Shown in pieces: positions 1 to 11,602 of a stretch of DNA of 13,632 bases. The notes beneath the pieces are model-generated. The model was not told the DNA's origin and ran no database searches. It saw only the letters and a program-made list of their open reading frames with translations. Position 1 is the stretch's first letter. Each line of letters opens with the position of its first letter. The stretch lies in the NCBI GenBank assembly GCA_016930435.1, contig JAFGGQ010000024.1:1-13632 (forward strand), written 5' to 3'. The DNA is from a bacterium (GTDB taxonomy: Bacteria; UBP14; UBA6098; JAFGQG01). A program made the position numbers and the translations under genes.

Positions 1-437
1 GGGATTATCAGAGATACACCCTGTTTATAGAAAAAGAAATCTTTGCAGTTGATCAGGCCCATAACAATGGCTAAAATGGCGATGATCACCCTGATGATCC
101 GGATATAACCCAGCAAAAGGTAAATATTGAGCCATGCGGCCATAAATAGATAATAGAACACAAATACCACGGCCACGAAGCTGAAACCTACTATAAAAAC
201 CCTCGCCCTGTTATGGGCTATGGAGACCAAGACCCCCAGGATAAATGTTAGCATCCAAAGGGTGCAGGGATTCCAGCCATCAACGAAGGAAATCAGGATG
301 GTGAACAGGGGCAAGGGCATGTGAAGCCCAAGATTTTCAAATGTCTCCGTTGAGGCTCTACTGGCAAAAAAGTAAATAAGAATAAGGATAACAACCAGAA
401 TGGTCCCTATAAGGATTTTTTTACCACGTGTAGTCAT
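1..437 (-). CDS. CcdA-like integral membrane thiol-disulfide protein (3' end cut by window edge)
   Basis: An open frame runs from an ATG at 437 to the window edge (145 codons), so the C-terminus is missing. The start is supported by an AAGGAG Shine-Dalgarno 8 nt upstream. The N-terminus has a basic stretch (TTRGKK) and a hydrophobic helix (about residues 8-25). A second membrane region carries FVDGWNPCTLWML (about residues 51-63), and two or more further hydrophobic helices follow. The DG(F/W)NPC motif in a transmembrane helix is typical of CcdA/DsbD-like proteins that carry reducing equivalents across the membrane to extracytoplasmic thioredoxin-like partners. A second cysteine lies in INCKDFF (about residue 131), where these proteins usually carry the partner cysteine. 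The gene begins 14 bp after the thioredoxin-fold lipoprotein gene, its likely partner. Family assignment is fairly sure; the substrate is unknown. Confidence 0.75.
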   Translation of the reverse strand, partial: MTTRGKKILIGTILVVILILIYFFASRASTETFENLGLHMPLPLFTILISFVDGWNPCTLWMLTFILGVLVSIAHNRARVFIVGFSFVAVVFVFYYLFMAAWLNIYLLLGYIRIIRVIIAILAIVMGLINCKDFFFYKQGVSLII

Positions 438-451
438 TAGTGAGGCTCCTT

Positions 452-1177
452 TTACTCTGATTCAAAGTATGGACCCCACTGAAATATCCACCCGCCTATT
501 CGAATTGCATTTCGGTAAGCCAGATTGTGCACCAACTGGTTATTTTCAGGGGAATAACTCTCTGTTTTTATGGTCTTTATATAATCTTCAATGGATTCGG
601 CTGTCATCAGGTTATGCAGAACTTTTGAATCCACCTCTTCCTTGCCGGTTTTCATTAGTAAGCGATCCTTCATCCAGATCTGGGGGTAGCCGGGCAGGGA
701 ATTAATATCCAGCTTGCTAAAGGGAATGCTGCCATCAGGCAACGGGCATTCGTTTCCCTCGGCAACAGCTACCATATCCCTGACCTTTCTTTCCAGCACA
801 TCGCCACCGGCATTTTTGTTGGTACTGTTGAAGATCAGTACCGGGATCATGAAGCCAGCCCTGTATTTGCTATTGTAAACCCCTATCGCTTCGGCGTTCT
901 CGCTGTAGCCCTCTAATTCATAAACCACTAAAACAAGACGAGGATACTGTTCAAAAAGCTCTTTTACCATTATCCCTGCAACACCCTCGCAATTATGACA
1001 GCCAATACTCCCGAAGTAAACTCCACAAGTATATGGGTTATTACCGGCTTCTCCTTTGGCTGTTTTTGCATCCAGATTATCGTTCTCTTTGGATCCGGTT
1101 CCGCAGGCAAAGCTGAACAACAGTATCAGCGTTAAAACAACTATATAAATACTATTGTATTTTTTTATACTGCCCAT
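452..1177 (-). CDS. Thioredoxin-fold lipoprotein with a CHNC motif
   Basis: 241 residues. The N-terminus has lysines at 5-6, a hydrophobic helix (10-24) and Cys25 followed by GTGSKEND, as expected for a lipoprotein signal. The lipobox (FSFAC) is off-consensus, because Leu is missing at -3. The mature part has a thioredoxin-like GCHNC motif (Cys60 and Cys63), an extra Cys51 just before it, and a probable cis-proline in GFMIPVLIF (about residue 115). It should therefore act outside the membrane as a thiol-disulfide reductase or isomerase. The CcdA-like gene 14 bp downstream would keep it reduced. It follows the hydrogenase large-subunit gene after 77 bp with no good promoter or terminator between, so read-through from the hydrogenase operon is possible. 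Substrate and direct link to the hydrogenase are unknown. A GAGGC site lies about 10 nt before the ATG. Confidence 0.7.
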   Translation of the reverse strand: MGSIKKYNSIYIVVLTLILLFSFACGTGSKENDNLDAKTAKGEAGNNPYTCGVYFGSIGCHNCEGVAGIMVKELFEQYPRLVLVVYELEGYSENAEAIGVYNSKYRAGFMIPVLIFNSTNKNAGGDVLERKVRDMVAVAEGNECPLPDGSIPFSKLDINSLPGYPQIWMKDRLLMKTGKEEVDSKVLHNLMTAESIEDYIKTIKTESYSPENNQLVHNLAYRNAIRIGGWIFQWGPYFESE

Positions 1178-1254: not shown

Positions 1255-2718
1255 CTAATTCTGACGCAAGATTTTTATAATTTTTCCTTTGGGATCCCGA
1301 AGGGTTACTTCAAGCGGTGTAGAGCCAGGCAGAGAGTGAGTAGCGCAAGCCATGCAGGGATCATAAGCCCTGAAAGCCATTTCCACCATATTCAACAATC
1401 CATCGTTGACCTCACCGTTTTTAATCAGGCCCTGAGCCGCTTTTTTAACTGACATGCAGATGGCTGCTGAATTATTCACGGTAGCCACGATCAGATTTGC
1501 TTTCTCGATAATCCCATTCTCATCGGTTTTGTAATGATGATACAGTGTACCCCGCGGCGCTTCGATCACTCCCACGCCTTCAGTTGGAATCTCTGTTGGG
1601 ATATTGCGGATATGATCGCTTAATATCTCATCATCGAGAGCAAGTTCCAGTAATCTTTCTGCGGCGTACATCTGCTCTACCAGTCGGGCCCAGTGAAAAG
1701 CCAGGGTATTATGGGCGGGTTTGCCACCGAGTACTTCATACATTTTCTCATACTCTGCCTGGGCTAAAGGAGTAGCCATTCCATCGGCGGCATTGGTCCT
1801 TGCCAGCGGAGCAACGCGGTAAATACCACTATCCGGACCATCCACGAAGCCTTTCCAGCCTATGTTCTTGAGGTACGGGAATTTGATATAACTCCATTCT
1901 TCAACGTGTTCATCGATGTGATTGAGGTAGTCCCGGGCATGGAATTTGGCATATTCCTTCCCGCTGGGATCGACCACCCTGACGGTACCGTCATAGAGGT
2001 TCAGCTTGTTGTTTTCATCCACAAGTCCCATATAGTAGGTATTATGCTTATAAATATCGCCAACGATCACATTGACATAATCCTGGTTAGCCAGGACGAT
2101 ATCTGCGAACAATTTAAGGCTGAACTTAGAAAATTCAACGGCATCCCGGGCAGTCTGGATGAACTCTTCGCGCTCATCCGGTTTTACGCCCCGTGAGACC
2201 CCGCCGGGCAAGCCGCATACCGGATGGATCACCCTGCCGCCCAGGGTAGTAATAATGTTCCTGGTTCTCTTGCGGATATCTATCACCTTGCTCGCTGCTT
2301 CCAATCCGACCTTCTGGATTACCCCGAGGATATTTCTCTGGCCGGCGGGTGCAGTAGGGCCTACTACAAAATCAGGGCCGCCCAGAAAGTAAAAATGCAG
2401 GGTATGATCCTCGAACATGAAAGCTGAATAGATAAGCTCCCGAATTTTTTTAGCTGCAGGCGGGGGTTCTACCTTATAAAGATCGTCAAGCGTTTTAGCA
2501 GAGCACATGTGATGAGTTGTGGGGCATACTCCGCAGATCTTGGGAGTGATACGGGGCATTTCCTCGCAGCGGCGGCCCTCCGAAAACTTCTCAAATCCTC
2601 TCAATTCCGGGATCTGTAAATAAGCATTCTCTACATTCCCATCATCATTGAGGAATATCTCGATCTTGCCATGACCTTCCAATCTGGTGATAGGATCAAT
2701 GGTTATTCTCTTTGCCAT
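1255..2718 (-). CDS. mvhA: [NiFe] hydrogenase large subunit, Mvh type (group 3c)
   Basis: 487 residues, full length for the F420-non-reducing (methyl viologen-reducing) hydrogenase alpha subunit. It carries the Ni-Fe active site that splits or makes H2. Nickel ligands are visible in L1 (KICGVCPTTHH, Cys62 and Cys65) and L2 (DPCMACATH, Cys455 and Cys458). The N-terminal TRLEGHGKIEIF and the EAPRGTLYHHY segment (387-397), which holds the conserved arginine over the active site, are intact. L1 has Lys where many families have Arg (R-x-C-G-x-C). After His461 there are 26 more residues, expected to be removed by a maturation endopeptidase once nickel is inserted; no such peptidase is in this window. 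It starts 2 bp after mvhG, and its GGAGGA site lies in the end of mvhG, so the two are translated together. Subgroup 3c is inferred from motifs and neighbours. Confidence 0.95.
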   Translation of the reverse strand: MAKRITIDPITRLEGHGKIEIFLNDDGNVENAYLQIPELRGFEKFSEGRRCEEMPRITPKICGVCPTTHHMCSAKTLDDLYKVEPPPAAKKIRELIYSAFMFEDHTLHFYFLGGPDFVVGPTAPAGQRNILGVIQKVGLEAASKVIDIRKRTRNIITTLGGRVIHPVCGLPGGVSRGVKPDEREEFIQTARDAVEFSKFSLKLFADIVLANQDYVNVIVGDIYKHNTYYMGLVDENNKLNLYDGTVRVVDPSGKEYAKFHARDYLNHIDEHVEEWSYIKFPYLKNIGWKGFVDGPDSGIYRVAPLARTNAADGMATPLAQAEYEKMYEVLGGKPAHNTLAFHWARLVEQMYAAERLLELALDDEILSDHIRNIPTEIPTEGVGVIEAPRGTLYHHYKTDENGIIEKANLIVATVNNSAAICMSVKKAAQGLIKNGEVNDGLLNMVEMAFRAYDPCMACATHSLPGSTPLEVTLRDPKGKIIKILRQN

Positions 2719-2720
2719 TA

Positions 2721-3704
2721 TTATTCCTCCATTTTCTTTCTTCTAAGGATTGAAGTGGGTAAGCTATACATATAGAAGAGGCCGGCCGGGTCGGGAATTT
2801 TATCCATAGTATTTTTCATCTCCTCTTCCGATATATCCTTTTCATTATGCAAGCTGAATATCGAGGCGATACTTGACATTGCATTGAGGCCGAAATCGGT
2901 AACTCCATCTACTGGCCCAAAGCACCCGCGACAGGGCATATTGGCATTGATACAGCGCTCGCCGCAACCACCGCGGGTAGCTACGCCCATACAGATTATA
3001 CCCTGAGCCAAAAAACATTTTTCAGGGTCCACCTCGGTCAGACTGACCCGTTTAAATTCGGTCAATTCCAGCTTCTCGGGCTTGCTGTCATTTCTCTCAC
3101 ACTCGTCGCATAGTGATTTTTTGGATGCCAGTACAGTTCCCTTGGGAGGAAGGGCGCCTGACAGGATCGCATTCACGGCGTCCATAATGAGATTGGCAGG
3201 AGGGGCGCACCCGGGAAGATAATAATCTACATCTATAACCTGATCCAAAGCTCTAACCGTATCCCAAAATTCAGGGAGAGTAAGGGTACCTTCGGGAACT
3301 TCTGTTCTGGTTTTTGGAAATACACGGTTCGGATTTGAGGTGGATTCAGAAGTGATATAAGCCCTTTCGAAAATCCCTGCCCGGTCACTGAAATTAGCCA
3401 AACCAGGGATGCCCCCCAAATGAGCGCAACTACCGAAAGCTACCACCATTCCCGATTTCTTTCTGAGCAATTCTACCATTTCTTCCTGTTCTTCCGTTCT
3501 GACCGCACCATTGATAAAACTCACCGCGATCTCGCCATCTCCCATAGCCTCGACATCTTTCCTCTTGAAATCCAGAGCCACCGGCCAAAAAACTATATCT
3601 ACGGCATCCACTACTTTAAGTATGTCCTCAGCCAGATCAACTACCGCCTCCTCGCAACCTCCACAGGAAGCACACCAGTAAAAGGCTACTTTTGGTTTTG
3701 ACAT
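2721..3704 (-). CDS. mvhG: [NiFe] hydrogenase small subunit, Mvh type (group 3c)
   Basis: 327 residues. This is the electron-transfer subunit that passes electrons between the Ni-Fe site and the Fe-S partner proteins. The proximal [4Fe-4S] cluster is marked by CASCGGCEE (Cys11 and Cys14), GSCAHLGG (Cys93) and LPGCAPP (Cys166). The C-terminal half has a cysteine set (199, 202, 230, 238, 247, 251, 258, 261) enough for two more [4Fe-4S] clusters, as in group 3 small subunits. There is no Tat signal, so the enzyme is cytoplasmic. The start has a near-perfect AAGGAGGT site. The gene follows the ferredoxin-MvhD fusion by 55 bp and runs into mvhA. In methanogen Mvh, this subunit hands electrons to MvhD; here the adjacent fusion protein carries that domain. 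Confidence 0.93.
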   Translation of the reverse strand: MSKPKVAFYWCASCGGCEEAVVDLAEDILKVVDAVDIVFWPVALDFKRKDVEAMGDGEIAVSFINGAVRTEEQEEMVELLRKKSGMVVAFGSCAHLGGIPGLANFSDRAGIFERAYITSESTSNPNRVFPKTRTEVPEGTLTLPEFWDTVRALDQVIDVDYYLPGCAPPANLIMDAVNAILSGALPPKGTVLASKKSLCDECERNDSKPEKLELTEFKRVSLTEVDPEKCFLAQGIICMGVATRGGCGERCINANMPCRGCFGPVDGVTDFGLNAMSSIASIFSLHNEKDISEEEMKNTMDKIPDPAGLFYMYSLPTSILRRKKMEE

Positions 3705-3759
3705 ATCGACCTCCTTATAAACCCTTCAATACCTTTAAACTTATTTATACAATTTCTAA

Positions 3760-4749
3760 TCATACACAACAACCCACCCTGGAATCGGCCTCTTTTCTTA
3801 CGGGGCCAAATTCCTCAACCTTATCCAAAAATGCATCCATCGCCTTTTCCAGCTTGGCTACTTCATTGGTTTTGATCCACTCCACCTTGAGGCGATCAGG
3901 ATTGATATTCATTACCTTGAAGAGGTTCTGCAGCAGGAGTACCCGGCGAAACATCTTATAATTGCCGTCATGTTCGCAATCGCCAAAGGGGCAAGCTGCG
4001 ATCATGACCCCCCAGGCCCCCTCACGAAACGCTTCCAGAAGCATCTGGGATGTTATACGGCCACTGCACATAGTAATAATTACCTTGAAGTTTTCCTCAT
4101 CTACTTCCAGTGGGCTGCTCAGCCTTAATCCAGGCATGATCGACCAGTTACAGCAGAATACAATTACTTTCGGTTTATCATCCGACGATCTGATTTTTCC
4201 AAAATAATTATTGACGGCTTGATTCAATTCCTTTTCAGTTAAACCATAACCTTCCTTAAGGTTTCGGGCACCTGTAGGGCAGGTAGGGATGCATACTCCA
4301 CAACCCTCGCATTTAATCCTGTCCGTGTCAGATAGCTTCTTTCCGCCTTCAGTATCCTTAAGAGTTGCCGCTTCCGGTTTGCACACCGCGACGCAAAGAC
4401 CGCAGCCACTGCATAATTCTTCATCCACAACCGCATTAACTCCATCCACCTCATATCCCTGATCGATCAGATATTCTCTCATGGAATCAAGGATATCGGT
4501 AACCGGGACTTTTGCAGAGCATCCCTTTTCGCACTGTTTACATGAAAAACACTCGAATATTTTTTCGGCGATGTTTTGGGTCGGGTCGATATGGCCGGAC
4601 AATATTCCATAGGTTAAAAGTAACTTTCCTCTGGGGGAATCGGATTCCCAATTAAAGATCTTGTACAGGTGGCAGTTTTCATAACAATAGCCACATCTGA
4701 TGCAATTGTTCAGCTCTTTTTCCCACTTTTGTAATAGATTTTCTGCCAT
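3760..4749 (-). CDS. Three-module Fe-S hub: HdrC/GlcF-like ferredoxin + 2x[4Fe-4S] ferredoxin + MvhD domain
   Basis: 329 residues in three parts. (1) Residues 1-105 are an HdrC/GlcF-type double [4Fe-4S] domain (Cys16, 19, 22, 26 and 67, 70, 73, 77). (2) Residues 108-165 are a bacterial-type 2x[4Fe-4S] ferredoxin (Cys113, 116, 119, 123 and 147, 150, 153, 157). (3) Residues 193-315 are an MvhD-like [2Fe-2S] domain (MCSGR at 227-231, ACPFGDC at 252-258). Up to four [4Fe-4S] and one [2Fe-2S] cluster are predicted. In Mvh-Hdr complexes MvhD bridges hydrogenase and HdrA; placed just before mvhGA, this protein probably wires the hydrogenase to the HdrA and GlcF-like partners. The MvhD entry motif is altered to CCNWS, and the chain ends in Cys-Cys-Val. 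The first module is about half identical to the N-terminus of the GlcF/HdrD-like protein upstream. The ATG follows a GGGGAG site. No single family name fits the whole chain. Confidence 0.88.
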   Translation of the reverse strand: MAENLLQKWEKELNNCIRCGYCYENCHLYKIFNWESDSPRGKLLLTYGILSGHIDPTQNIAEKIFECFSCKQCEKGCSAKVPVTDILDSMREYLIDQGYEVDGVNAVVDEELCSGCGLCVAVCKPEAATLKDTEGGKKLSDTDRIKCEGCGVCIPTCPTGARNLKEGYGLTEKELNQAVNNYFGKIRSSDDKPKVIVFCCNWSIMPGLRLSSPLEVDEENFKVIITMCSGRITSQMLLEAFREGAWGVMIAACPFGDCEHDGNYKMFRRVLLLQNLFKVMNINPDRLKVEWIKTNEVAKLEKAMDAFLDKVEEFGPVRKEADSRVGCCV

Positions 4750-4807
4750 TAAAGCTCCCCGTATTTTTAGGTTCTACAGTTTTACATAAAATTTAAATAC
4801 TTTATCA

Positions 4808-4831
4808 ATATATTGTAATATTACGATATAT
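4808..4831. promoter_or_regulatory. 24-bp AT-rich palindrome, candidate ArsR-type operator
   Basis: Two 12-bp arms (4808-4819 and 4820-4831) are exact inverted repeats except for one pair, centred on GTAATATTAC. The site lies about 10 bp downstream of the -10 element of the candidate promoter for the hub-mvhGA genes, where bound protein would block transcription. Its length and AT-rich symmetry resemble operators of ArsR/SmtB-family repressors, and such a repressor is encoded about 1.2 kb upstream in the same cluster. The pairing of repressor and site is inference. Confidence 0.5.
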
Positions 4832-4840
4832 ATAATTAAA

Positions 4841-4870
4841 ACCATACTATTAACCTATCCTAACTTTCAA
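4841..4870 (-). promoter_or_regulatory. Candidate sigma-A promoter for the hub-mvhG-mvhA genes
   Basis: The -35 is TTGAAA (4865-4870), the spacer is 18 bp and the -10 is TATGGT (4841-4846). It lies in the 128-bp AT-rich gap after the GlcF/HdrD-like gene. The -10 match is weak (4 of 6). A second TTGATA-like -35 overlaps the left end of the palindrome but lacks a good -10. The hub gene could also be reached by read-through from upstream. Confidence 0.35.
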
Positions 4871-4877
4871 ATAATAA

Positions 4878-5936
4878 TTACCTCAAAGCTTCCCAGATCA
4901 GGTCGAGGAGGTTTTTAACCTCGATCTTGTTACCATCTTCCTTGGCCATATTAGCCAGGTTCAGCTCGCAGGTTGGACATAGGGTTACCAGTATTTTAGC
5001 GCCGGTATCGAGAGCTTGACGGTAACGTTTTCGAGCCAGTTTTTCCGATAGTTCCCGATCGGTAACGAGCACACCGCCTCCTCCTCCACAACATTCAGCT
5101 TCTTTGCCGAAAGTTTCCATCTCCACATAATCACAACCGATCATCTTCAGGATTTTTCTGGGCTCCTTTACCATATCCATTCCCCTTCCAACGTTACAAG
5201 GGTCGTGGTAGGTAACCGTTAGACCTAACTGTCTGGGGTTGGCTTCAGGAAGTCTCTTATATATTTCTTCAATAATATAAGTTGGATTGAGATCAGTGTA
5301 AGATTTCCTTATAAAGAACACGCAGGTGGTACACATGCATATAAATTCATTATAAGGGAATCGTTCTCTAAAGAGTGCCTTTTGTTTATTGGTTTTATCC
5401 TTGTAACCGAGAACTCCAGGAGGCATTCCACAACAAACCTCATCTTCTACGGTCATAGGTTCCATGCCGAGTTTGGTCAAAATCTCGACATAACGCTTGG
5501 CATCATCGCTTCTTTCCAGAAAACGGCATCCCAGAAGAACCGGCGTTTTCCCCGGATGTGGGGGAGCCTTAAGTTCTTTTCCGAAAATATTTCCACTGCT
5601 CTCGACCTTGTTCAGCAAATTCACATGAGAGTCATATTTGAATCCAGCTTCAACCAGGTCAGCCCGAGCTGCAGTGAGGATATCAGGAACCGATATATTG
5701 GCAGAACACCTTTGAATACAATCTCTGCAGAATGTACACTCCAGTATTTTTTCAGCAATATAATCGCTGGGTTCCAGTTGACCGGTAAAAAGTCCGTAAG
5801 CGAGAACCACCTTTCCTCGCGGCGTATCACTCTCCCAACCTTTTTCTTTGAACATTGGACAACCCTCGAAACAATACGCGCACCGGATACAGGTGTTCAT
5901 CTCTGTTTCCCAATCTTTTAGGTACTTTACTTCCAT
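4878..5936 (-). CDS. GlcF/HdrD-like iron-sulfur protein with two CCG domains
   Basis: 352 residues. The N-terminal double [4Fe-4S] domain has Cys16, 19, 22, 26 and 67, 70, 73, 77. Two CCG domains follow: Cys137, Cys168-Cys169 and CMCTTC (200-205); then Cys247, Cys282-Cys283 and CPTC (320-323). CCG domains in HdrB bind noncubane [4Fe-4S] clusters that reduce the heterodisulfide; the same layout occurs in HdrD and in the GlcF/LldF-type partner of FAD-linked 2-hydroxy acid dehydrogenases. No separate hdrB or hdrC is present, so this protein probably supplies that arm. Its neighbour two genes upstream is a GlcD-like oxidase, which favours a GlcF-like partner role in a cytoplasmic complex. Both CCG sets are complete, so catalysis as well as electron transfer is possible. 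The ATG is preceded by GGAAGGGG at short spacing. Confidence 0.88.
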   Translation of the reverse strand: MEVKYLKDWETEMNTCIRCAYCFEGCPMFKEKGWESDTPRGKVVLAYGLFTGQLEPSDYIAEKILECTFCRDCIQRCSANISVPDILTAARADLVEAGFKYDSHVNLLNKVESSGNIFGKELKAPPHPGKTPVLLGCRFLERSDDAKRYVEILTKLGMEPMTVEDEVCCGMPPGVLGYKDKTNKQKALFRERFPYNEFICMCTTCVFFIRKSYTDLNPTYIIEEIYKRLPEANPRQLGLTVTYHDPCNVGRGMDMVKEPRKILKMIGCDYVEMETFGKEAECCGGGGGVLVTDRELSEKLARKRYRQALDTGAKILVTLCPTCELNLANMAKEDGNKIEVKNLLDLIWEALR

Positions 5937-5978
5937 AGCCCCTTCCCAATTTGGTTTAATTTATGATTGAAGAATTAA

Positions 5979-5992
5979 CTCACAATTGTAAG
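5979..5992. promoter_or_regulatory. 14-bp palindrome between the ArsR-type and GlcF-like genes
   Basis: On the minus strand the site reads CTTACAATTGTGAG, symmetrical at all but one pair. It lies in the 61-bp gap after the repressor gene stop codon and shares the string TTACAAT with the larger palindrome at 4808-4831. It may be a weak second binding site. Chance is a real alternative in AT-rich spacer DNA. Confidence 0.25.
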
Positions 5993-5997
5993 GACTA

Positions 5998-6270
5998 TTA
6001 TTTTAGAATTTCCATAATTCTCTTTATCCTATCATCTACTATTCTGTAACATGTCTCAACACACCTTCGCTCTCCGCTTATAATTCCGCGGTCCCTCAGT
6101 ATCTGAAGATGTTGTGATACTGTGGATTGAGGAAGACCGAGAATTTTTTGAATAGCTGTAACGCTACAATTATCCTCGGTCAGCCCGGATATGATTTCGA
6201 CGATCTGCATTCGGACTGGATGAGCGAGGGCCTTCAACATTCTGCTTTCAGTTTTATATTTATCTTTCAC
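5998..6270 (-). CDS. ArsR/SmtB-family winged-helix repressor
   Basis: 90 residues, near the usual family size. The pattern LKALAHPVRMQIVEII (12-27), the recognition helix LGLPQSTVSQHLQILRDRG (44-62) and a beta-wing to about residue 76 are typical of ArsR-type repressors that dimerise on AT-rich palindromes and leave DNA on binding metal or on thiol oxidation. The classical CVC metal motif is absent: only Cys35 lies in that region, while Cys70 and Cys74 flank the wing (RRCVETCY). This fits a thiol or sulfur sensor as well as a metal one. It starts at GTG 19 bp after the FAD oxidase gene with no clear Shine-Dalgarno, so it is probably translated by coupling; an in-frame TAA three codons upstream of the GTG bounds the start. 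Likely targets are this cluster's own promoters. Confidence 0.88.
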   Translation of the reverse strand: MKDKYKTESRMLKALAHPVRMQIVEIISGLTEDNCSVTAIQKILGLPQSTVSQHLQILRDRGIISGERRCVETCYRIVDDRIKRIMEILK

Positions 6271-6289
6271 GGTTTAATAGGGCTTAATT

Positions 6290-7714
6290 CTAAAGCATTT
6301 GATAGCGAATTTTAGTAGCGGTAAGCCAATCGTCCGGAGCATCCTGCAATTTGCCGGGATTCAGGATATTATTTGGATCCAGTGCAAATTTTATTTTGGT
6401 CATTACCGGTAACATGTCACCATGTGTTTTTTTCCAGGATGGGGCTTTGGACAAAGCGATACCGTGTTCGCCGGAGGTAATTCCGCCAACCTCATCGACG
6501 AAATCGTAGATTTCATCAACAGCTTTTTTAGCGGCGTCCCAGCTCTCTTTTTTAGAGGGGTCCATCAGGATTTTGGTGTGCATAACCCCTGAGCCGCAGT
6601 GGCCGTAGGCAGTCATAATCAAGCCGTACTTGTCAGCGATCTGGTGGATCTTTCGGGCGGTTGCTGCCATTTGGGTATAAGGAACAGCCATATCGTCTGC
6701 AAGTGAGGTACAAGCCCATCCGTCTTTGTATCTTGAGAGAGCGGCGAAGAGCTTCTTTCTGCCTCCGAAGATCTTTGTTCGCTCTTTAAGATCGTAACTG
6801 GTAGCGGTTACGGTTCCACCGTGCTGTTCAACGATGAGGCGCATACTATTTATTTCGTGATCAACAGCCTCTTTCACTTTGCCATCAGCTTCAAAGAAAA
6901 TCAATGCTTCGACCTCGGGAAGGTCCATATTCAGGGTTTTATTAACCGCTTTTATGGCAATATCATCCATAAGCTCCAGCATTGAAGGCTCGGCTCCGCT
7001 TGCGATAATTGCCCCAATAGTATCGCCGGCCTTTTCCAGCTGGTCAAAAGTAGCTACACTCAGACATCTGTATTTGGGAATTGGTACGCATTTCAGGGTA
7101 GCTTCCACTACTATTCCGAGTGTTCCTTCTGAGCCAACGATCAGCCGGTGAATCTGATATCCTGCGGCTTCTACCCGGGTCTTAGCACCAAGTTTAATGA
7201 TATCCCCGTTAGCCAGGACCAATCTCATTCCCAGAACGTACTCCCGAGTAGCACCGTATTTAACTGACCGTAATCCGCTGGCATTATTTGCAATTTCCCC
7301 TCCGATAGTAGCGATCCTGCTGGAAGCGGGAGAAGGAGGGTAAGTAATACCATAAGGTTTGAGTGCCCGGTTAAGATCATCATCAACCACACCCGCTTCA
7401 ACCCGGCAATACATATCGTCCGGTTTGATCTCCAGAATTCGGTTCATTGCCTTCATATCCAGGATTATCGATTTTGTATCCATGGGGACTGCATGACCGG
7501 ACATCCCGGATCCCGCGCCCCGGGCGATTACCGGGATCTTCTGCGAATTAGCATAGGCCATAATCTGGGAAACTTGTTCTATCGAATGTGGTTTTACCAC
7601 TAAACCGGGTAATCCCTGATGAACAGAAGCATCCGCCCCATAAACATAAAGTTCAGCGACATTATCCCTGACGTTATCCTCACCAACTATACCCCTTAAG
7701 CTGCTTAAATCCAT
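6290..7714 (-). CDS. GlcD-type FAD-linked oxidase (2-hydroxy acid dehydrogenase-like)
   Basis: 474 residues from the ATG at 7714. The FAD-binding (PCMH) domain fills the first half: ARGAGSGMSG (64-73), PPSPASS (126-132), IGGEIANNASG (137-147) and KYGATREY. The FAD-linked oxidase C-terminal domain fills the second half, with YGHCGSGVMH (370-379) and GEHGI (415-419). Members oxidise D-lactate, glycolate or other 2-hydroxy acids and pass electrons to GlcF-like Fe-S proteins; such a protein is encoded two genes downstream. There is no signal or membrane segment. The motif usually written GHxGDGNxH here reads GHCGSGVMH, so the Asp and Asn are replaced although both His remain; the substrate may differ from lactate. 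A GTG at 7720 is also in frame, but the AAGGAG site overlaps it and sits 5 nt from the ATG. Substrate is not identifiable from sequence alone. Confidence 0.87.
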   Translation of the reverse strand: MDLSSLRGIVGEDNVRDNVAELYVYGADASVHQGLPGLVVKPHSIEQVSQIMAYANSQKIPVIARGAGSGMSGHAVPMDTKSIILDMKAMNRILEIKPDDMYCRVEAGVVDDDLNRALKPYGITYPPSPASSRIATIGGEIANNASGLRSVKYGATREYVLGMRLVLANGDIIKLGAKTRVEAAGYQIHRLIVGSEGTLGIVVEATLKCVPIPKYRCLSVATFDQLEKAGDTIGAIIASGAEPSMLELMDDIAIKAVNKTLNMDLPEVEALIFFEADGKVKEAVDHEINSMRLIVEQHGGTVTATSYDLKERTKIFGGRKKLFAALSRYKDGWACTSLADDMAVPYTQMAATARKIHQIADKYGLIMTAYGHCGSGVMHTKILMDPSKKESWDAAKKAVDEIYDFVDEVGGITSGEHGIALSKAPSWKKTHGDMLPVMTKIKFALDPNNILNPGKLQDAPDDWLTATKIRYQML

Positions 7715-7719
7715 GTTCA

Positions 7720-7725
7720 CTCCTT
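7720..7725 (-). promoter_or_regulatory. Shine-Dalgarno that fixes the start of the FAD-linked oxidase
   Basis: AAGGAG lies 5 nt upstream of the ATG at 7712-7714. It overlaps the alternative in-frame GTG at 7718-7720, which makes that GTG an unlikely start. Confidence 0.6.
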
Positions 7726-7783
7726 ATCTTCAGTTAATTTAAATATACTGAAATATTGATTTTATAAGACCTTCTTATTTATT

Positions 7784-7813
7784 ACTACTTTATGCTTCAA
7801 TTAACAAAGTAGT
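7784..7813. repeat. Inverted repeat in the mvhD-glcD-like gap
   Basis: Arms ACTACTTTAT (7784-7793) and ACAAAGTAGT (7804-7813) match at 9 of 10 positions around a 10-nt loop. There is no T-run after it on the minus strand, so it is not a usual terminator. It lies downstream of the candidate promoter and about 70 bp before the FAD-oxidase start, where an operator or leader stem-loop could sit. Confidence 0.35.
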
Positions 7814-7837
7814 CGCCATTAGTTTTTCAGGTGAAAT

Positions 7838-7865
7838 AATGTAAATCGGGGACATAAAAAGTCAA
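7838..7865 (-). promoter_or_regulatory. Candidate sigma-A promoter for the FAD oxidase-ArsR-GlcF-like genes
   Basis: The -35 is TTGACT (7860-7865), the spacer 16 bp and the -10 TACATT (7838-7843). It lies in the 175-bp gap between mvhD and the FAD-oxidase gene. It would give a leader of about 120 nt containing the inverted repeat at 7784-7813. The -10 is only a 4 of 6 match, and no terminator separates it from mvhD, so read-through is also possible. Confidence 0.35.
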
Positions 7866-7889
7866 GTTAAAAATAATAATACCTGATCT

Positions 7890-8303
7890 TCACTCGAATT
7901 TTATCTGTAGTGGCCCCAATTTCTCTATTGTTTCCACCATTTCGTTAGCTACCCTGGCGAATTTTTCTCCTTCAGAGGCAGCTACCCAATCCAGTCTTAT
8001 CCGCTCCGGTTCGATACCTAATTGAGCCAGCATATTGCGGAGCAATTCAATCCGCCGGACAGCTTTATAATTTCCGCTTTTATAGTGGCAATCACCGGGA
8101 TGGCAACCCAGTATAAGCACACCGCTAGCCCCTTCCCTGAAAGCTTTCAGAATAAACTGGGGTTCTACTCTACCGCTGCACATCACTCTTATTGTACGCA
8201 GGTTTCCGGGATATTTCAATTTAGCTGCGCCAGCCCGGTCCGCTCCTTCATAGGAGCACCAGTTGCATAAAAATCCGACTACTTTAGTTTTATAGTTACT
8301 CAC
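7890..8303 (-). CDS. mvhD: MvhD-type [2Fe-2S] electron-transfer subunit
   Basis: 137 residues, the usual size of stand-alone MvhD. In Mvh-Hdr complexes it carries a [2Fe-2S] cluster and links the hydrogenase (or a formate dehydrogenase) to HdrA. All family cysteines are visible: CNWC (13-16), MCSGRV (Cys42) and GCHPGDCHY (Cys67 and Cys72). The GTG start overlaps the hdrA TGA stop (GTGA), with a GGGGG site 7 nt before, so the two are translationally coupled and the product is expected to bind HdrA. It is a second MvhD copy: another, altered, is fused to ferredoxin modules next to mvhGA. It could serve the local hydrogenase or a different electron donor. Confidence 0.93.
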
Positions 8304-10234
8304 TGTACTACCCCCTCGATTTCCTTTAAGATTTGTTCACAAGTATAGTGCCGGGCAATGGCTGCACCCGTTGGGCAAGCGGCGGAACAGGTTCCACAGC
8401 CCCGGCATAGGGTTTCATCAACGACCGAAATGCTCTTTTCAATATCCCTTGAAATGGCTGAGAAAGGACACATCCCGATACATATACGGCAACCACTGCA
8501 GATTTCCTCATTAATATTGGCTACCTTCGTCTCCAGTTCCAGTTTCTCTCCTGGAACCAGTCGGGAAAGAATTCTGCCTGCAGCAGCCCCACCCTGAGCG
8601 ACCGAATCACCTATATCCTTGGGCCCCTGACAGGTTCCCGCGATATAAACCCCCTCAAGGGGAGTTCCAAAAGGTTTCATCAGAAGATGTTCCTGCTCGA
8701 AGAAACCGTAAACATCAAGAGGGATATCGAATAGTTCACTCAGCTTCAAAATATCTCCTGAAGGCACCATTGCCGGGGCTAACACTACCATATCAACGAT
8801 GATCTCTTTTCTCCCAATAGGAGAATCATACGAAACCTTCAATTTGTCTCCGGCCTGGGTAACGGTGGAACTCTGACCCGCACGGATGAACTCAATGCCC
8901 TCCTCTTTGACCTTCTTATAAACCACCTGGCTCTCTTTCTTGGGTAAGCAGAGATCATCATAAAGGCTATAGACCCTGGCCTCAGGTAATTTTTCCTGAA
9001 CATGCCTGGCCAATTTAACCGAATACATGCAACAAATACCAGAGCAATAACCCTTCTCTTTGCGGCCCACACAGTATATGAAAGCCACCGATTCGGGTTT
9101 CTTTCCATTCTTCATAATAATATTACCGCCGGTAGGGCCATTGGAGGCATATAGTCTTTCCAATTCCATCGCACTATAAATATTCTCATAACGGCCATAA
9201 CCATACTGAGGGATAGAACGGGGATCCATCAGATCAGCCCCAGTAGCCAGTACAATAGCGCCTACCTTTTTCTCCACAATCTCATCATGGTCATCGAACC
9301 TGATAGCCCCAAAAGCGCAAGCCTGTTCACAGAGGCGGCATTCCTCGCCATACAATTGCATACAATGTTCGGAATCGATCACCGGAACATTAGGTAAAGC
9401 GCCCATGAAGGGAAGATAGATGGCTTTCCGGTTGGATAATCCCTGATCGTATAAATTGGGGACATCAACGGGACATGGATCAAAACAAGCGTTACAACCG
9501 ATGCAGGCTTCTATATCTACGTAACGGGCCTTCTTACGTATCTTAACGGTGAAATTCCCATAAGAACCAACTACATCTTCCAATTCGCTATGGGTATAGA
9601 CTTCAACATTATCCTTCTGGAGCACCTCCTGTAGCTCCGGAGCAAGCATGCATGGCGCGCATTCCATAGTCTGATATACATCTTCGAGCAGGGCTCCTAC
9701 CCCCCCAATAAATGGAGTTTTTTCTACCAGATATACTTTTCGCCCTTTTTGGGCAAGGGTCAACACCGATTCCAGACCCGCTACTCCCCCTCCCACTACC
9801 AGCACATCAGGAGAAGCATCAATAGCCTTCTTTTCCATTGATTCATGAAGCTTAACACGGCTTACCGCAGCCTTGATAAAACCGAGGGCCTTTTCGGTAG
9901 CCTCCTGCCGATCCGCAGTTACCCAGGCACATTGTTCCCGAATATTTGTCATTTGCATCAGGAAAGGATTGATGCCAGCATCCCTGCAGGCATTCATGAA
10001 AAGCTGCTCATATTGCTTGGGAGTACAGGCCGCAATAACTACCCGATCCAGATTGTTCTTCTTGATCTGTTCGGTCACAAAAGCCTTGCCTTCCTGTGAA
10101 CAAAGCAGGTTGTGATCCGTAACAAATTCAACTTCCTCCATCCTCCCAACCTCTTGCATAACCGCATTTACGTCAATAGAATTTCCAATATTGGGACCGC
10201 ACCTGCAGATAAATACACCGGTTCGTTCTGCCAT
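8300..10234 (-). CDS. hdrA: HdrA-type electron-bifurcating FAD iron-sulfur subunit
   Basis: 644 residues, full length for HdrA, the flavoprotein that splits electron pairs between ferredoxin and a high-potential acceptor. Domains in order: N-terminal cysteine domain (CRCG at 10-13, Cys45, Cys70); thioredoxin reductase-like FAD domain with [10 protein letters not shown] (146-155); an inserted ferredoxin (Cys244, 247, 250, 254) and a second set (Cys291, 299, 302, 306); the YCSGICC motif (396-402); a second nucleotide-fold part ending in [10 protein letters not shown] (531-540); and a C-terminal 2x[4Fe-4S] ferredoxin (Cys579, 582, 585, 589 and 610, 613, 616, 620). There is no membrane segment, so it is cytoplasmic. 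AGGGGG precedes the ATG. It is coupled to mvhD. No separate hdrB or hdrC lies nearby; the GlcF/HdrD-like protein and the Fe-S hub are the likely partners. Confidence 0.95.
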
Positions 10235-10589: not shown

Positions 10590-11255
10590 TTAGTCTCTTA
10601 TAATTTTTAGCTGATTCCTAACCCAATCAATCCAATGAGAGAAGCCTTCCCCAGTTTTAGAGGTCAGTATAAAACGTTCGAGGGCGTCATTAACCGTGGT
10701 CAAGTTCTGGTTTATCACCTCCAGATTGTAATCAAGGATTTCCCGTAGGTCAATCTTATTGATCACTACAGCATGCGAAACCCTGAACATCAGTGGGTAT
10801 TTGAGGGGTTTATCTTCACCTTCGGGGGTTGAGAGAATTACCACATTTTTATGGGCTCCGGTATCGAATTCGGCCGGACAGACCAGATTCCCCACATTTT
10901 CAATAATGATTACATCCAGGTTCTGCAGGTCAAAGGAAAGGGCGGCGTCCTTGATCCAGGTAGCTTCGAGGTGGCAAGCGCCATCGAAGGGTTCAGTATT
11001 TATCTGCACCACCGGGATTCCCAACCTGGACAATCTTTCAGCGTCAATAGTTGAGGTAATGTCGCCTTCAATGACAGCGAAGTTTATTTCGCCCTTCAAT
11101 GCTTCTATAGTTCTGCTAATGAATGTGGTTTTCCCGGCCCCCGGTGAACCCATCAGGTTAATGACCAATATCCCTTTGCTCTTAAAGTATTGGCGTGTCT
11201 GTTCTGCCAGGGCGTCATTCGCCTGAAGTACTTTTTGCAAAATTTTAATCTCCAT
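10590..11255 (-). CDS. hypB: Hydrogenase nickel-insertion GTPase HypB
   Basis: 221 residues. HypB is the cytoplasmic GTPase that, with HypA, delivers nickel to the large subunit of [NiFe] hydrogenases (and sometimes to other Ni enzymes). It has Walker A GSPGAGKTT (36-44), the metal-binding pair Cys94-His95 (ACHLEA), ENVGNLVCP with Cys126, and NKID (166-169). The His-rich stretch and N-terminal CxxCGC motif found in some HypBs are absent, so it is the short form without a nickel store. It starts 2 bp after hypA stops, with GAGGAG in the end of hypA, so the pair is one operon. The nearby mvhA is the obvious client. hypC, D, E, F and a peptidase are not in the window. Confidence 0.95.
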   Translation of the reverse strand: MEIKILQKVLQANDALAEQTRQYFKSKGILVINLMGSPGAGKTTFISRTIEALKGEINFAVIEGDITSTIDAERLSRLGIPVVQINTEPFDGACHLEATWIKDAALSFDLQNLDVIIIENVGNLVCPAEFDTGAHKNVVILSTPEGEDKPLKYPLMFRVSHAVVINKIDLREILDYNLEVINQNLTTVNDALERFILTSKTGEGFSHWIDWVRNQLKIIRD

Positions 11256-11257
11256 AT

Positions 11258-11602
11258 CTATTTCTCCTCGATCTCAATTGAGTTTACCAGCATTTCCCGC
11301 CCCGACAACAGCTTTATCGAGGGCGAATTACAGAAAGGGCACAAGAATGAAACCGTTTCAATTTCGAATTCGCGTTGGCACTCCATACAAAAAGCCCTTG
11401 CCGGGACCTCCTCGATTGCTAATTTGGCACCTTCAAGAGGAGTACCGGGAATCATGTTTTCGAAACAAAACTGGAGGGCTTCCGGAACTACACCGGACAT
11501 TTTTCCCAGGGTAAGCCGCACTATGGTTACCGTATCTCCCTGAGCAGGAATATGTTCCTGCACGATATCCATAATATTCTTCGCTATAGCAAGCTCGTGC
11601 AT
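11258..11602 (-). CDS. hypA: Hydrogenase nickel-delivery protein HypA
   Basis: 114 residues, normal length. HypA binds nickel through the N-terminal Met-His-Glu (His2) and zinc through two CxxC pairs (Cys72 and Cys75; Cys88 and Cys91); all are visible. It works with HypB to load nickel into the hydrogenase large subunit before C-terminal processing. The ATG has GAGGA 6 nt upstream, and a good promoter lies 33 bp before the start. The gene is 97 bp after dprA and coupled to hypB. Confidence 0.95.
   Translation of the reverse strand: MHELAIAKNIMDIVQEHIPAQGDTVTIVRLTLGKMSGVVPEALQFCFENMIPGTPLEGAKLAIEEVPARAFCMECQREFEIETVSFLCPFCNSPSIKLLSGREMLVNSIEIEEK

Follow-up and report, generated by a model that had tools for sequence, protein, structure and literature searches.

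A candidate D-malate/oxaloacetate oxidoreductase linked to an Hdr-Mvh-type hydrogenase cluster in a UBP14 bacterium

The MvhADG-HdrABC complex of methanogens (PDB 5odc; PMC5861303) and the LctBCD (Ldh-EtfAB) complex of Acetobacterium woodii (7qh2; PMC9232219) offer analogies, for heterodisulfide and lactate respectively, to the coupling proposed here for a gene cluster, hdrA-mvhD-glcD-arsR-glcF-fusD-mvhG-mvhA, found in a stretch of 13,632 nucleotides from a bacterium of the UBP14 lineage (contig JAFGGQ010000024.1, assembly GCA_016930435.1; the window in what follows is this whole stretch). The cluster shares with MvhADG-HdrABC the HdrA, MvhD, MvhG and MvhA proteins with their expected motifs, a hydrogenase of the Mvh/Vhu type, and Fe-S domains of the HdrC and HdrB types. 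It differs in having no stand-alone HdrB or HdrC, the two domain types being fused in GlcF, and in possessing a second MvhD fused to HdrC-like and ferredoxin domains (FusD) and a GlcD-type flavin adenine dinucleotide (FAD) enzyme. Coenzymes M and B are not expected to take part. With LctBCD it has in common a GlcD-type FAD hydroxyacid dehydrogenase, proposed here to be driven by confurcation, but HdrA, FusD and the hydrogenase replace EtfAB and nicotinamide adenine dinucleotide (NAD), no etf gene lies in the cluster, a lysine (K383) is found in place of a hydrophobic subsite, and malate is the proposed substrate.

The glycolate oxidase GlcDEF also contains homologues of GlcD and GlcF. The window, however, has no separate glcE gene, its GlcD and GlcF score below the model cut-offs, its GlcD belongs to a distinct clade, and the partners are HdrA and hydrogenase instead of quinone. 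Human D-2-hydroxyglutarate dehydrogenase (D-2-HGDH; PMC7801405) and D-malate:cytochrome c oxidoreductase (PMC12294151) share the catalytic and metal-site residues of the FAD enzyme and represent a family able to convert D-malate to oxaloacetate. Unlike these enzymes, the window GlcD does not keep Lys401 and Thr390, has Lys at the Asn443 position, and is proposed to use low-potential Fe-S partners rather than cytochrome c or O2. Recombination of Hdr-type modules with another flavin enzyme is known from archaeal GlcD-HdrD pairs (e.g. in Korarchaeia, PMC10667645) and from Moorella MetFV-HdrABC-MvhD (PMC5861303), but neither joins GlcD, GlcF, FusD, HdrA and MvhGA, and neither has a link to malate genes. 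No description of a GlcD-Hdr-hydrogenase malate system was found in the literature searched, which left most subscription papers outside and is not proof of novelty.

Judged from its sequence, the cluster probably encodes a cytoplasmic, NAD-independent oxidoreductase for the D-malate/oxaloacetate couple, with FusD and HdrA connecting it to H2 and probably to ferredoxin. A first-pass annotation had described hdrA-mvhD, glcD, arsR, glcF, fusD and mvhG-mvhA as a run of genes on one strand, and open reading frames and domain searches confirmed each of them in its place (Table 1). The intergenic gaps from hdrA through mvhA were 2-169 bases long, hdrA and mvhD overlapped by 4 bases, and hypA-hypB lay directly upstream of hdrA. 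All these genes, as well as obgE, dprA and two more genes, were on the minus strand.

A scan of genome contigs for FusD yielded 41 loci, of which 27 were accepted as true FusD loci. Those left out were weak matches judged to be unrelated ferredoxin-type proteins (L060 and L062-L072, from Methanobrevibacter and others) and hits that fell on GlcF or HdrA genes in genomes that were already part of the count (L058 and L059). At 24 of the 27 loci glcD was located at most 2 kb upstream of fusD, mostly directly adjacent to it. The glcD-fusD loci came from Thermodesulfobacteriota, Chloroflexota, Caldifarciminota/WOR-3, Cloacimonadota, Fermentibacterota, Thermoplasmatota and further bacteria. The mvhG-mvhA pair adjoined fusD in seven of the 27, and glcD, fusD, mvhG and mvhA occurred together at five loci (L032, L045, L051, L052 and L054) and in the window. 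The full seven-part set recurred in a Cloacimonadota contig (L051) with FusD encoded by two genes; GlcD-GlcF-FusD-MvhG-MvhA was present in Cloacimonadota L045 and Fermentibacterota L052, and GlcD-FusD-MvhG-MvhA in Thermoplasmatota L054. In Desulfobacula, Dehalococcoidia and WOR-3 the glcD-fusD pair, mostly accompanied by larA, had no hydrogenase genes nearby.

Three genomes were compared more closely: that of the window (G000), one of the same family (G001) and one of the same class (G011). A G001 contig carried glcD-arsR-fusD-mvhG-mvhA followed by genes for a thioredoxin-like and a membrane protein, with the hydrogenase half in the order of the window, and a second contig carried hdrA-mvhD-FMN_bind-glcD-glcF-arsR-glcD-glcF. 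In G011, hdrA-mvhD-fusD and fusD-mvhG-mvhA were found at two contig ends and glcD-glcF-glcF elsewhere. Since the hydrogenase half recurs in G001, glcD keeps its proximity to fusD, and the seven-part set is repeated in L051, the gene arrangement is not due to chance. Because glcD-fusD is retained in three groups without a nearby hydrogenase, GlcD-FusD is the conserved unit and the hydrogenase one of its partners. The co-occurrence of all seven genes, which the first-pass annotation had proposed as a check, was found in L051 and extended widely for glcD-fusD, but the hydrogenase is not obligatory. The conserved co-occurrence of the parts makes the suggested coupling of H2 and ferredoxin to a 2-hydroxy acid plausible, and is consistent with one cytoplasmic system.

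The different contigs of hdrA-mvhD-fusD-mvhG-mvhA and glcD-glcF-glcF in G011, and two loci with fusD and hydrogenase genes but no adjacent glcD (L036 and L049), would also fit two enzymes whose genes are merely co-transcribed: HdrA-MvhD-FusD-MvhGA acting as an H2:ferredoxin (or disulfide) enzyme, and GlcD-GlcF as an independent malate or hydroxyacid dehydrogenase. This arrangement was considered unlikely, as the fusD gene stands beside glcD at nearly all loci, often where there are no hydrogenase genes at all, and FusD, with its GlcF-type N-terminal domain and its MvhD, resembles a shared connector.

Indications of a malate/oxaloacetate enzyme came, among others, from GlcD itself. The 29 GlcD proteins from fusD-linked loci or genomes formed one clade (SH-aLRT, the Shimodaira-Hasegawa-like approximate likelihood ratio test, 100) in a quick tree made without bootstraps, in which one long-branch outsider attached at the base of the clade. 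Identity to the window copy was 59-76% within the clade and did not exceed 40% for the other GlcDs of 60 relatives. In the clade the motif GHxGDGNxH is changed to GHCG[SI]G[VCL]xHTKI, and about four extra residues precede DDMAVP. If the malate reading is true, the form GHCGSG..HTKI offers a testable marker by which a group of 'GlcD' proteins could be re-annotated in metagenomes. Residues were mapped by alignment on human D-2-HGDH, with roles taken from PMC7801405. R321, H374, H381, E418 and H419 of the window GlcD correspond to the catalytic and metal residues R386, H434, H441, E475 and H476; they were present in 29/29 clade members and 28/28 other GlcDs, and are thus necessary for D-malate oxidation but not specific to it. 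The position of N443, in contrast, was occupied by Lys (K383) in all 29 clade members and in none of the 28 others, and that of Y432 remained Tyr. In D-2-HGDH the pocket region around N443 holds the distal carboxylate of D-2-hydroxyglutarate and D-malate (PMC7801405); mouse LDHD, with a hydrophobic surface in this part of the pocket, does not use D-malate (PMC10589216). The invariant lysine fits a putative dicarboxylate substrate.

Another line of evidence was the association with LarA. At 16 loci a LarA of the malate-racemase type was encoded within about 150 bases downstream of fusD. The nearest PDB relative of these proteins was the malate racemase Mar2, and they carried a Gln before the catalytic Lys (L046 could not be matched cleanly) and a GHK motif, features described for malate racemases (PMC7583248). 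In the window's own genome, genes for citrate synthase, aconitase and NADP-isocitrate dehydrogenase come after larA (L103:821-2071), and the larA-citrate synthase-aconitase run was also present in G001. The G000 protein has the residues for nickel-pincer nucleotide (NPN) binding and catalysis, the Gln and the GHK motif. Since the LarAs scored below the LarAH6 equivalog cut-off of 500 bits (mostly 385-398; 389 for the G000 copy), their assignment as malate racemases relied on signature and context. The signature was missing from the second LarA copies of G000 and G001. LarA was found in 18 of the 19 genomes with FusD. Within the class, strong matches were confined to the three FusD genomes, and one FusD-negative genome had a weaker match. 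Fisher tests of LarA with FusD gave p 1.4e-6 against relatives and 0.006 within the class, values that are indicative only, the tests ignoring kinship and the genome sets having been chosen in different ways. In G000, G001, G011 and roughly half of the genomes with fusD, LarA has intact NPN-binding residues although LarC was not detected and LarE did not reach its cut-off. At L109 (G064), L108 (G072), contig C13 of G063 and contig C89 of G074, larA adjoins one or two genes of the NAD-malate/lactate dehydrogenase family, unlike at the GlcD-FusD loci.

Genes of C4-acid and tricarboxylic acid (TCA) cycle metabolism were among the neighbours. L034 has the order MmdA-PYCB-GlcD-FusD-LarA-fumarase-HdrC/B-like-SdhB-TfrA, containing transcarboxylase/pyruvate-carboxylase subunits and a soluble fumarate reductase, one subunit of which is HdrB-like; L053 has TfrA-GlcD-PEPCK-FusD-LarA (PEPCK, phosphoenolpyruvate carboxykinase) and L113 LarA-GlcD-PEPCK-GlcF-HdrC-HdrB-HdrA. 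PEPCK is also encoded in L045, succinyl-CoA synthetase and fumarase in L051/L108, and both LarA and a malic enzyme in L052. A fumarase of this type was present in 18/19 FusD genomes, G000 included. The soluble fumarate reductase/succinate dehydrogenase set (HdrC-like, HdrB/SdhE-like, SdhB-like and TfrA-like) next to GlcD-FusD at L034:13242-17036 and L053:429-6572 raises the possibility that Hdr-type electron carriers serve the entire C4 branch.

The usual enzymes appeared to be missing. No match to PF02866 (Ldh_1, NAD malate/lactate dehydrogenases) was found in G000, G001 and G011, and matches were present in 6/19 FusD genomes compared with 13/14 controls. PF02615 (Ldh_2) was likewise absent from the three genomes and from 15/19 of those with FusD. 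No lactate permease was detected in any of the 19 FusD genomes, that of the window among them.

The first-pass annotation had named a lactate- or glycolate-like substrate, and oxidation of such an acid (of the D-lactate type) coupled to H2 through HdrA has its own merits. The closest solved relatives of GlcD are glycolate oxidase (9qgz) and the lactate dehydrogenase LctD (7qh2), besides D-2-HGDH (6lpn); its NCBIfam model is glcD; Phe and Ala occupy the distal pocket positions 325 and 341; and a bifurcating enzyme for lactate is known in LctBCD (PMC9232219, PMC5861303). This substrate is nevertheless quite unlikely, and its choice was probably wrong: the pocket lysine is invariant, LarA bears the malate-racemase signature, the adjacent genes encode fumarase, PEPCK, transcarboxylase, fumarate reductase and citrate synthase, lactate permease is absent from 19/19 FusD genomes, and GlcD scores 378 bits with the glcD model, whose cut-off is 568. 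For the same C4/TCA neighbours, LarA type, pocket lysine and missing permease, together with the lack of malate dehydrogenase, malate/oxaloacetate appears likelier than lactate/glycolate.

FusD had been annotated as a ferredoxin-MvhD fusion. Both parts were found, but the protein has in addition an N-terminal HdrC/GlcF-type domain with two [4Fe-4S] clusters (Pfam Fer4_8/Fer4_17), 47% identical to the N-terminus of the window GlcF over 100 residues. Its 16 Fe-S cysteines were invariant in the true FusD sequences; four of the five MvhD cysteines were kept, the fifth being Ser in nearly all. At five loci (L045, L049, L051, L053 and L054) FusD is split into two genes, indicating that the fusion is not fixed while its partners stay together. 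FusD is the proposed connector between GlcD and HdrA/hydrogenase.

GlcD/GlcF had been thought to stand in place of HdrBC, and separate hdrB or hdrC genes are indeed missing from the window. GlcF itself, however, combines two CX2CX2CX3C motifs with two complete CCG motifs, the pattern of HdrC plus HdrB in a single chain (67 bits with the NCBIfam GlcF model, cut-off 333). It is an HdrC-HdrB (HdrD/TfrB)-type fusion, and HdrBC is not simply missing. Two complete CCG motifs as in HdrB, TfrB as the best model, and the conserved CxxC lipoprotein-like and membrane proteins downstream would suit reduction of a disulfide by GlcF (HdrD/TfrB-like), linking H2 or malate to a thiol/disulfide pool and not to ferredoxin. 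Such a role seems improbable, as GlcF lies outside the glcD-fusD-larA units of Desulfobacula and Dehalococcoidia and the C4-acid neighbours point elsewhere.

In the malate/oxaloacetate scheme, the FAD and metal site of GlcD would be where D-malate is oxidised to oxaloacetate or oxaloacetate is reduced. Electrons would pass from the GlcD FAD to GlcF and/or the HdrC-like domain of FusD, through the FusD ferredoxin clusters and MvhD domain, and on to HdrA. HdrA, together with MvhD and MvhGA, would trade electrons with H2, and flavin-based bifurcation or confurcation would make ferredoxin a further exchange partner. Connecting D-malate with the L-malate used in the TCA cycle would fall to LarA, whose gene lies in another part of the genome. 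Textbook potentials are about -170 mV for malate/oxaloacetate, -414 mV for H2 and -420 mV or lower for ferredoxin, and malate oxidation with protons is strongly uphill. Confurcation with reduced ferredoxin (in reverse, bifurcation from H2) would permit reversibility at low H2, with the net reaction malate + reduced ferredoxin <-> oxaloacetate + 2 H2 (+ oxidised ferredoxin) turning with H2 pressure. The wider view, that this is a flavin-based electron-bifurcating malate:H2/ferredoxin oxidoreductase in which, in these uncultured anaerobes, LarA plus a GlcD-FusD core takes the malate step through D-malate instead of NAD-malate dehydrogenase, with exchangeable low-potential partners, is advanced tentatively, its chances being put slightly short of even. 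The D-malate route would serve the TCA cycle or the methylmalonyl-CoA pathway, with hydrogenase as partner here and others elsewhere, and the cluster could replace the usual NAD-dependent malate dehydrogenase, apparently lacking in the genome. Substrate, electron path, a single physical complex, bifurcation and direction are all inferred.

Several observations weigh against this scheme. PF02866 was absent from the whole class (0/17), including fusD-free genomes. The absence is thus not specific to the cluster, and the lack of NAD-malate dehydrogenase was rejected as specific evidence by itself. In the window's own genome (90% complete) LarC was undetected and LarE reached only 42 bits (cut-off 150), LarB not having been searched; G001, G011 and roughly half of the genomes with fusD, a consistent set, likewise had no LarC and no LarE above the cut-off. 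Either the LarA cofactor is supplied by another route or LarA works differently there. Thr390 of D-2-HGDH is replaced by Phe325 and, by alignment, Lys401 by Ala341, as in lactate/glycolate enzymes. The genes of G001 and G011 are spread over several contigs, so a single complex is not proved. Predicted structures of FusD and GlcD, made from shallow alignments of 15 and 16 sequences, had a mean pLDDT (predicted local distance difference test score) of 64 and 68, respectively, too weak to be used.

If the scheme is true, a central carbon reaction would be wired directly to H2 and ferredoxin, not to NAD, by a detour through the D-isomer. It would explain the C4 branch in anaerobes without a recognisable malate dehydrogenase and add malate to the short list of hydroxyacids used by bifurcating enzymes. 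It would also give a function to FusD, a conserved unnamed Fe-S connector, and to the adjacent GHK-type LarA proteins.

Table 1. Genes of the cluster and its neighbours in the window
Gene or product	Position	Strand	Features
membrane protein, clipped by window end	3..437	-	conserved neighbour
lipoprotein-like protein	452..1177	-	GCHNC motif; thioredoxin-like by reading only
mvhA, large [NiFe] hydrogenase subunit	1255..2718	-	CGVC and DPCMAC nickel motifs; VhuA 407 bits
mvhG, small [NiFe] hydrogenase subunit	2721..3704	-	VhuG-type 1.5e-59
fusD	3760..4749	-	HdrC-like 2x[4Fe-4S], 2x[4Fe-4S] ferredoxin and MvhD; Pfam
glcF	4878..5936	-	Pfam CCG (2) and Fer4_8; best NCBIfam model TfrB
arsR-type regulator	5998..6270	-	NCBIfam NF033788, above cut-off
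glcD-type FAD oxidoreductase	6290..7720	-	Pfam FAD_binding_4 and FAD-oxidase_C
mvhD	7890..8303	-	stand-alone [2Fe-2S] subunit, 5 Cys; Pfam FlpD 5.8e-56
hdrA	8300..10234	-	FAD domain, HdrA-type cluster motif CX8CX3CC (388-402), three CX2CX2CX3C motifs
hypB, hydrogenase nickel incorporation	10590..11255	-	Pfam cobW/HypB/UreG; adjoins hypA
hypA, hydrogenase nickel incorporation	11258..11602	-	Pfam HypA 1.2e-34

HdrA matched the NCBIfam HdrA2 and HdrA models over residues 3-644 (656 and 548 bits, under the whole-protein cut-offs), and its copies in G001 and G011 were 68% and 53% identical. It is the flavin subunit and the expected site of bifurcation, and the stand-alone MvhD is the expected link between hydrogenase and HdrA. 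The G001 copy of MvhG was 83% identical. Among solved structures, MvhA matched the NiFe hydrogenase 7t2r (4.8e-119) and MvhA of 5odc (8.7e-118). The ArsR-type regulator, in which Cys35 and Cys74 were invariant across three family copies and whose gene adjoins glcD in both G001 clusters, probably controls the cluster.

A Pfam search of the lipoprotein-like and membrane proteins gave no match. Their genes occupied the same place after mvhA in G001, with 46% and 59% identity, respectively, and a functional link may exist for this pair (window 3-1177). Upstream of glcD-glcF-fusD-mvhGA in the Fermentibacterota locus, L052:4964-7285 encodes a protein in which cNMP-binding, acetate kinase and phosphotransacylase (PTAC) parts are fused. 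On contig C113 of G000, L027:10810-12567 encodes a malic enzyme that carries a response-regulator receiver domain at its N-terminus; genes for acetate kinase and for an HdrA-like protein of 1541 residues, mvhD and an FrhB-like gene lie nearby.

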